A stretch of DNA of 64,000 bases, taken from the NCBI RefSeq assembly GCF_022809715.1, contig NZ_CP094459.1, positions 620,001-684,000 of the forward strand, given 5' to 3'. The position numbers and the translations under genes are program-made. This stretch comes from Burkholderia pyrrocinia (lineage in GTDB: Bacteria > Pseudomonadota > Gammaproteobacteria > Burkholderiales > Burkholderiaceae). The notes under the pieces were generated by a model. It worked only from the letters and a program-made list of their open reading frames with translations. It was not told the DNA's origin and made no database searches. Numbering within the stretch: position 1 is the stretch's first letter; every line of letters begins with the position of its first letter. Of this stretch, positions 58,286 through 60,709 are shown in pieces.

Positions 58286-58694
<409 letters not shown>

Positions 58695-58710
58695 CCATTC
58701 GAATGCGAAA

Positions 58711-59190: not shown

Positions 59191-59515
59191 GCTTGCACTC
59201 CAGCGTTGCCTGATTCGGATTCGATCCGGCATTGTAGCCCGCAGCGCTTCGGTCGGCTGATGCGGTGCACGACGTGCAGCACCGGAGCCGCGCGAGCGGT
59301 GCGCGACAGCGTGCCGAGCGGCGATTTCCCTGTTGTTTTTAGGGGTTTTACTCTAGGTGCGGGCTATCTTCGCTCGCCTTGGCCGGAGTCATGTGATTGA
59401 TTTTAAACATGAAATTGAATTTTTCTGCCAATCGTCCGAAATTTCGCATTATGGTTTTTGATTTCGCAATGCAAATTTTCTTGTGAAGCCGGTGGTGCGT
59501 TCGTATAATGAGCCT
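59191..59515. other. AT-rich gap with the promoter of a small RNA at its end
   Basis: No gene seen. It becomes AT-rich after 59400 and ends in a textbook promoter, TTGTGA (59481-59486), 17 bases, TATAAT (59504-59509), which reads rightwards into the candidate small RNA. Confidence 0.55.
59481..59509 (+). promoter_or_regulatory. Sigma-70 promoter of the candidate small RNA
   Basis: TTGTGA, 17-base spacer, TATAAT: the best-looking promoter of the region with a perfect -10. The predicted start is near 59516, with no open frame of size immediately after. Confidence 0.75.
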
Positions 59516-59607
59516 CATTGGTTGTCGCGCTGCGGCAACCTCCGAATGTCTCCTCCACCCTCCTCCTAAGGTGGATTAAGCCCGAACCAGCCGTTCGGGC
59601 TTTTTTT
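59516..59607 (+). ncRNA. Candidate small RNA with an anti-Shine-Dalgarno loop
   Basis: About 92 bases between a consensus promoter and a strong terminator. It folds into three hairpins: a nine-pair stem with a three-base loop at 59520-59540; a five-pair stem CCACC/GGTGG (59555-59559, 59570-59574) whose ten-base loop CTCCTCCTAA is complementary to a Shine-Dalgarno sequence; and the terminator. A CUCCUCC loop next to a poly-U terminator is the design of known trans-acting, Hfq-type small RNAs that block ribosome binding. There is no same-strand gene until rplM, 670 bases away. I recognise no named family. Confidence 0.65.
59579..59607 (+). terminator. Terminator of the candidate small RNA
   Basis: AAGCCCGAAC and GTTCGGGCTT around CAGCC, then TTTTT: a ten-pair stem with a full poly-T tail. 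Confidence 0.9.
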
Positions 59608-59663
59608 CGTCCCATGCAAACATCGGCGCGCGGCTTGCGCGCCCCGGCATCCCCCGACAATCA

Positions 59664-59969
59664 TTACGCAGGCTGCCGTGCGGCCGGCTGCGATGTCGCG
59701 TCGGGCGGTGTGCCGCGCAAGCGTGCGTCGGGTGCCGGCGCGGTCACGGCCGACGCATGGCCGTGGCCGCGTGCGCAGAAGTGGCGGACGCGTTCGCGCA
59801 CCGCACGCAGGCGGGCGACGCGATCCTCGGCATGGGCGGTCCGGGCTTCGGCAATGCGCGCATCGAGCGCGTCGAGCTTGGCTTCGCAGCCGACCTGGGC
59901 GGCGACGGCAGGCGCCGCGGCGGCCAGCAGCGCGGCCGCGAAGAAGGGCGTAAGTCGTTGTTTCATCAT
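59664..59969 (-). CDS. Small exported DUF1090-like protein
   Basis: A 101-residue protein with a signal peptide, likely cut after VAA near residue 24. The mature part GCEAKLDALDARIAEARTAH is followed by VARLRAVRERVRHFC, which resembles the DUF1090 pattern of a cysteine pair around a helical segment. The last 35 residues are Ala/Pro-rich. Function unknown; periplasmic location is inferred. It diverges from rplM across a 311-base gap and converges on the candidate small RNA. Confidence 0.62.
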   Translation of the reverse strand: MMKQRLTPFFAAALLAAAAPAVAAQVGCEAKLDALDARIAEARTAHAEDRVARLRAVRERVRHFCARGHGHASAVTAPAPDARLRGTPPDATSQPAARQPA

Positions 59970-60280
59970 GCTTGTTTGTTGTTTTCCGTATTCGGCCGGT
60001 CTGGCGCGGCAAGGTCATGTGCCGCGCGTCGATGGGTGCCTCCCCGGGCGCTCGGATCGCCTGGCTTGTCGGGGCACGACCGAATTTTCGCCCATTTCGG
60101 GCGCCGCGGACACGGGACGTGGATTCCCTTTGACCGCGTTGCCGTATTTCCTTTATAATTCAGGGCTTTTCCGCATTCATGCCCACGGAAAAAGAACAGG
60201 GAGAGCCTGCACCGCGCCTCGAAGCGCACACAGACAAGCAGGAAGAACACATCGGGCAAAGCATTTTTTTTGGATCGATC
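59970..60280. other. Gap between the DUF1090-like gene and rplM
   Basis: The 311-base gap has the rplM promoter at 60130-60159 and a leader of about 120 bases. The leader has a run of A and T (GCATTTTTTTTGG) just before the start. I see no further gene. Confidence 0.6.
60130..60159 (+). promoter_or_regulatory. Strong sigma-70 promoter of rplM-rpsI
   Basis: TTGACC (60130-60135), 18-base spacer, TATAAT (60154-60159). Transcription would start near 60166, giving a 115-base leader that could hold autoregulatory structure. Confidence 0.8.
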
Positions 60281-60709
60281 ATGAAGACGTTTTCCGCAAA
60301 AGCCCATGAGGTGACGCGCGAATGGTACGTGATTGACGCGACGGATAAGGTTCTCGGCCGTGTTGCCAGCGAAGTGGCACGCCGTCTGCGCGGCAAGCAC
60401 AAGCCTGAGTTCACCCCGCACGTCGACACTGGTGATTTCATCATCATCATCAACGCGAGCAAGTTGAAGGTCACGGGCAACAAGACGCTGGACAAGAAGT
60501 ACTACCGTCACTCGGGCTACCCGGGCGGTATCTATGAAACGACGTTCGGCAAGATGCAGGAACGCTTCCCGGGCCGCGCGCTCGAGAAGGCGGTCAAGGG
60601 CATGCTGCCGAAGGGCCCGCTCGGCTACGCGATGATCAAGAAGCTGAAGGTCTACGCAGAAGCGACGCATCCGCATTCGGCTCAACAGCCGAAGGCGCTC
60701 GAGATCTAA
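60281..60709 (+). CDS. rplM: Ribosomal protein L13
   Basis: A 142-residue L13, an early-assembly protein of the 50S subunit, beginning [15 protein letters not shown] with [15 protein letters not shown] and [20 protein letters not shown] as family segments. The standard operon partner rpsI starts ten bases later. A strong promoter lies upstream; an in-frame frame extends further 5' but the Met at 60281 matches the family start. Confidence 0.98.

Follow-up and report, generated by a model that had tools for sequence, protein, structure and literature searches.

A small RNA divergent from osmC in Burkholderia pyrrocinia as a very probable orthologue of ncS27 (bdhR1), with a candidate pairing seed at its predicted processed 5' end

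Small RNAs of the RF02278 type are present in 3-5 copies per Burkholderia genome according to the accessible text of a 2017 paper, and the family was named for the inhibition of E. coli growth observed on cloning (available portions of PMC5688073 and PMC4603805). The same portions list four copies in B. cenocepacia J2315: ncS03, ncS05, ncS62 and ncS27, the last being the long form (92 nt, MFE -37.8, z -5.1). It is flanked by two genes on the opposite strand and can be processed to a short form, and its transcript start, 3' end and processing site have been mapped (PMC5688073, PMC4603805, sections available). Its level is described there as raised in biofilm, in stationary phase, on starvation and in glucose medium; overexpression led to slower growth, and an antisense to the CU-rich 5' part to faster growth. 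The name bdhR1 is found in the accessible part of PMC11722255, while the available text of a review assigns NcS27 functions in the transport and metabolism of amino acids and carbohydrates (PMC10987360).

The window, a stretch of 64,000 nt from the Burkholderia pyrrocinia genome (contig NZ_CP094459.1, positions 620,001 to 684,000), carries on its plus strand a -35 hexamer TTGTGA (59481..59486) and a -10 hexamer TATAAT (59504..59509), located by direct reading and by a promoter scan, with a spacer of 17 bases and a score of 10/12. The predicted primary transcript of 92 nt extends from 59516 to 59607 on the same strand, as deduced from the Rfam match and the fold and in agreement with the 92 nt given for ncS27 in the published sections available, and it ends in an intrinsic terminator (59578..59607, plus strand; stem 59578-59587/59593-59602 followed by a U tail) recognised by the terminator scan and by folding. 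Between 58500 and 60500 the scan returned 4 promoter-like sites against 0.4 expected; terminator-like sites as a class were at chance level (4 against 3.5 expected), the stem of the sRNA terminator being, with 10 pairs, the longest of the four. Both flanking genes lie on the minus strand: osmC (Pfam OsmC) and an ORF of 101 aa with no match in Pfam. The rplM gene (Pfam Ribosomal_L13) is found downstream of the sRNA on the plus strand. The sRNA stretch is overlapped by several mechanically called ORFs that are taken as spurious: a plus-strand ORF of 263 aa with a TTG start (59518-60309) and three minus-strand ORFs. About 0.8 kb 5' of the sRNA promoter, the plus strand also encodes the class A RNase P RNA (58286-58697, 292.5 bits).

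Folding of the 92-nt strand gave -38.5 kcal/mol with a z of -4.99, and none of 200 shuffles was equally good. The fold consists of three hairpins, and the promoter, the transcript of about 92 nt, the hairpins and the terminator described by the original prediction proved correct base for base over 59481-59607. The first of the three hairpins, all on the plus strand, is a 5' leader hairpin (59520..59540), placed outside the Rfam model and defined by fold, covariation and comparison of loci. The remainder, 59547..59607, is a double-hairpin core that is expected to be the processed form and opens with the candidate 5' seed UGUCUCCUCC (59547..59556), of which the first 7 nt are unpaired in the core fold; its assignment draws on conservation, paralogues and a complement search as well. 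The middle hairpin (59554..59575, stem UCCACC/GGUGGA) displays the anti-Shine-Dalgarno loop CUCCUCCUAA (59560..59569, 10 nt), seen both by direct reading and in the fold.

A double hairpin with a CU-rich 5' end and a CU-rich loop is the hallmark of RF02278, and it is present in the fold. Rfam matched the 'Betaproteobacteria toxic small RNA' model at 59547-59608 over model positions 1-64 of 64 with 73.6 bits, above the curated cut-off of 50 bits, which independently confirms that the predicted sRNA is real; the match starts only at 59547, so that the leader hairpin is outside the model. In the genome (7.69 Mb, 3 contigs) four copies exceed the cut-off and a further one reaches 42.5 bits. Like ncS27 as published in the sections available, the RNA is a member of RF02278, has 92 nt, nearly equal folding energy and z and a leader before the double hairpin, and lies opposite in strand to the genes on either side; no difference was found in a comparison by these published features. 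In J2315, ncS27 presumably has the osmC-like gene as one neighbour and the side towards rplM as the other. Because the two RNAs agree in length, in folding energy, in the leader and in the orientation of their neighbours, the sRNA is assigned as the orthologue of ncS27 (bdhR1), and very probably it is this member of RF02278 and acts by the cleavage and seed pairing proposed below. It is thus already catalogued, the local and ordinary copy of a known Burkholderia RNA, so that the original prediction had picked out a genuine sRNA from the letters alone. Its description as an sRNA that is free-standing, acts in trans and carries anti-Shine-Dalgarno elements is supported by the B. cenocepacia orthologue, a mapped transcript according to the published sections available.

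Conservation was followed at osmC, of whose 570 relatives the best 80 were taken (Burkholderia, Paraburkholderia, Caballeronia and Trinickia). The sRNA is divergent from osmC in 79 of these best 80; at the last, L115, the contig ends too early beyond osmC to judge. The 79 loci comprise 60 distinct sequences, and L036 is one of six named loci whose sequence equals the 92 nt of the window. The core TCTCCTCCAC is exact in 78 of the 79 loci from the best 80, with a single change in L051. Genomes were sampled at three taxonomic levels with strict filters, by which weak matches may be lost. RF02278 exceeded its cut-off in 133 of the 150 from the family, in 93 of the 250 from the order and in 16 of the 299 from the phylum, all 16 belonging to the order of the window genome. 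Three genomes of the order (G156, G353 and G382) carry RF02278 copies a few hundred bases apart, with 9 matches in G156.

For covariation, 54 of the 60 distinct sequences were aligned, the 6 leaderless ones being left out. Both sides of the pair change in 4 of 9 pairs of the leader stem as drawn (3 of 8 in a shorter version) and in 2 of 10 pairs of the terminator stem, and on the covariation measures leader and terminator exceed every slid control. The number of further pair types was not above shuffles, since 368 and 74 of 500 shuffles reached it, and 33 of the 54 rows cannot form the innermost pair of the leader. The original prediction named a conserved loop on a covarying stem as support: the CUCCUCC of the loop is invariant in 54 of 54 rows, and the middle stem, in which 4 of the 6 pairs are constant and the other 2 change on a single side, is uninformative on covariation.

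The leader hairpin is missing beside osmC in 6 of the 79 loci (L085, L098, L102, L107, L108 and L114). There the -10 box stands six bases 5' of UGUCUCC; the copies L001 and L002 have the same spacing, and in the window the box is equally far from 59516. In a midpoint-rooted tree built on the osmC region of the 79 loci, with one short locus among them and weak support (0.48) for one of the nodes concerned, the leaderless state corresponds to three changes, which are read as losses. Since the -10 box of leaderless copies lies six bases before UGUCUCC, the seed is their predicted 5' end, in line with the processed form of ncS27 in the published sections available. The published passages available gave no description of the leader covariation and losses, of the place of the -10 box in leaderless loci or of the two upstream boxes presented below.

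Two parts of the RNA could pair with ribosome-binding sites. Among the orthologues the loop CUCCUCC is as invariant as the seed: GUCUCCUCCA and CUCCUCC are unchanged in 54 of 54 distinct leader-bearing rows, while the U at seed position 1, before GUCUCCUCCA, is C in some Caballeronia rows. The paralogues separate the two. In an alignment of 13 rows, in which L006, of the other orientation, was ignored, all four copies over the cut-off keep UGUCUCCUCC, whereas two of the four, L001 and L004, lack the full CUCCUCC; the weak fifth copy, L005, has GUCUCCUCC, with C at seed position 1. In the accessible text on the related S17S of Bordetella pertussis (PMC11722255), compensatory mutation with a sigma-54 activator as target proves Site 1, at the 5' end, and the effect of Site 3 by itself, a site that includes the second loop, is slight; Table 1 there has 11 targets, 9 of them attributed to Site 1 and 2 to Site 2, the first loop. 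As all four copies keep UGUCUCCUCC while two are without the full CUCCUCC, and as Site 1 of S17S is proven in that text, the 5' end UGUCUCCUCC would be the first choice as pairing seed, ranked above the loop. The reverse arrangement, in which pairing depends chiefly on CUCCUCC and the 5' end plays an accessory part, agrees with the invariance of CUCCUCC, its display in a 10-nt loop and the two S17S targets assigned to the first loop, but is unlikely in view of L001 and L004, of the nine targets at Site 1, one of them with proof, and of the loop flanks, which differ between species in the orthologue rows. The loop noted by the original prediction is real, with its CUCCUCC invariant among orthologues, and it may be the active part, but two of the four genome copies over the cut-off lack the full CUCCUCC.

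Action by capture of another RNA or of a protein such as Hfq, instead of pairing with mRNA, is extremely improbable. The U-rich tail after the terminator is of the type bound by Hfq, but the antisense to the CU-rich region of ncS27 gives the inverse growth effect in the published sections available, and S17S directly represses a target 5'UTR in the available text of PMC11722255.

The genome was searched for GGAGGAGACA, the complement of the first ten bases of the core. It has 29 matches, 5 of them in sRNA genes, 6 in rRNA operons and 18 elsewhere. At 14 of the 18, GGAGGAG is followed at 3-10 nt by the ATG of an ORF with 165 aa or more; the other four are looser (L148, at 2 nt, and L157, with a TTG start), seemingly inside a LysR-type gene (L154) or without a start (L150). 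The six rRNA-operon matches were rejected as targets: two were checked by Rfam and are antisense to 23S rRNA, and the flanking bases of the other four are identical. The seed UGUCUCCUCC itself is present in sense orientation in the 23S rRNA (L129, L153), probably by coincidence.

The control words GGAGGAGAAC and GGAGGAGCAA, of the same composition and two of the other 63 among the 64 GGAGGAGNNN words, have 5 and 7 matches, so that the excess of GGAGGAGACA is roughly threefold relative to these two words. GGAGGAG occurs 351 times in the genome; after removal of the 11 RNA-gene sites, 18 of 340 corresponds to a binomial tail of about 1e-5 at a rate of 1/64 and of 2e-4 at the higher control rate. 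As 10 of the 12 control-word sites also precede a possible start codon, the signal is the excess and not the position, and a preference for A-rich spacers could be behind part of it. A pattern combining the complement of loop plus stem ahead of a start codon gave no match.

By Pfam, the seed-type genes include three MFS genes, an L-lactate permease, two OmpW genes, two CoA-transferase III genes, an aldehyde dehydrogenase, an asparaginase II, an acyl-CoA dehydrogenase, a sigma-54 activator, a fatty acid hydroxylase, a cyclase and ETF-QO, with one gene lacking a match. The ten control-word genes scanned likewise contain a sodium:solute symporter, an acyl-CoA dehydrogenase and two other dehydrogenases; because transport and catabolism recur among the controls, the theme of the seed-type products is not specific and is suggestive only. 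The AGGAG sites named as possible targets by the original prediction are too loose a class, with 56 occurrences in the 64-kb window against 3 of AGGAGACA, the seed-type complement; one of the 3 belongs to the sRNA gene, on its complementary strand. AGGAGACA is also found just 5' of an ABC permease gene (688) and of a short-chain dehydrogenase gene (17379), possible targets within the window.

It is highly unlikely that the sRNA is a general brake on translation, a free anti-Shine-Dalgarno decoy that makes no choice of target. The E. coli growth inhibition behind the family name and the slower growth on ncS27 overexpression, both from the published sections available, accord with such a decoy, but growth is impaired on some substrates only according to the accessible text of the review (PMC10987360), and GGAGGAG extended by ACA is over-represented, a preference for which a plain decoy would have no use.

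Upstream of the promoter, column counts over 80 rows (the 79 loci from the best 80 of 570, plus the window) revealed two palindrome-like boxes on the plus strand, each of 15 bp and with starts 20 bp apart. Box 1 (59442..59456) reads TTTCGCATTATGGTT in the window and TTTCRCATTRTGAAA in relatives, and box 2 (59462..59476), TTTCGCAATGCAAAT, lies just before the -35 element. Several positions of each box are the same in at least 75 of the 80 rows, while bases further upstream are near random; since box 2 and the -35 element served as anchors for the rows, only the conservation of box 1 is independent. The boxes are conserved upstream of the sRNA in Burkholderia, Paraburkholderia and Caballeronia. 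With one mismatch allowed, the single-box pattern has 17 matches at 13 places of the genome, one being the sRNA's own box 2; 11 are in forward and 6 in reverse orientation, where the control has 1 each. The strict tandem-box pattern occurs in 5 of 150 family genomes, one of them that of the window, and is too strict to show absence. The accessible part of the 2017 paper reports, in its Fig. S3, an upstream motif common to three homologues, which may overlap the two boxes, and gives the regulation of the accumulation of these sRNAs as unknown.

The sRNA would turn down genes for food uptake and breakdown by covering their ribosome-binding sites. In the mechanism proposed for the orthologue, the 92-nt primary RNA would be cleaved near 59547, which would remove the leader hairpin, as a removable cap, and free the 5' end UGUCUCC(UCC). 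The seed, aided by the CUCCUCC loop, would then pair with GGAGGAGACA-like ribosome sites in mRNAs for transport and catabolism and block their translation when nutrients are short. A further proposal is tentative and rather doubtful: that UGUCUCCUCC must stand at the extreme 5' end, hidden by the leader until an endonuclease cuts, as a second switch besides transcription; that leaderless promoters start at the seed; and that a dedicated DNA-binding regulator reads the two boxes.

Among other known systems, the alpha-r14 'cuckoo' RNA (NfeR1) of Alphaproteobacteria likewise has an unpaired anti-Shine-Dalgarno CCUCC and many predicted ABC-transporter targets, and carries CCUCCUCCC in each of its three hairpins (available text of PMC10746234), whereas here the fold has a CU-rich loop in the middle hairpin only. 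The kinship suggested by the original prediction, to alpha-r15 as 'cuckoo', fails: the name belongs to alpha-r14 in that text, and the 7 Rfam matches with E<=1 include no member of the cuckoo/alpha-r15 family. Burkholderia RNA 7 anti-hemB (RF02837) shares a CU-rich hairpin followed by a terminator, but at 25.6 bits the sRNA is below the cut-off of 49.5 for membership. The original prediction was right on the kind of RNA, wrong on its kin and perhaps one element off on the seed. The B. pertussis S17S, as described in the accessible text of PMC11722255, has a single-stranded CU-rich 5' end, is processed from a longer RNA and has ribosome-site targets in transport and catabolism, as is proposed here; it is not toxic in exponential E. 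coli, and bdhR1 differs from S17 by 2 mismatches in the conserved 5' region. The comparison adds two points that can be tested, namely the part of the RNA responsible for target choice and the control of sRNA production.
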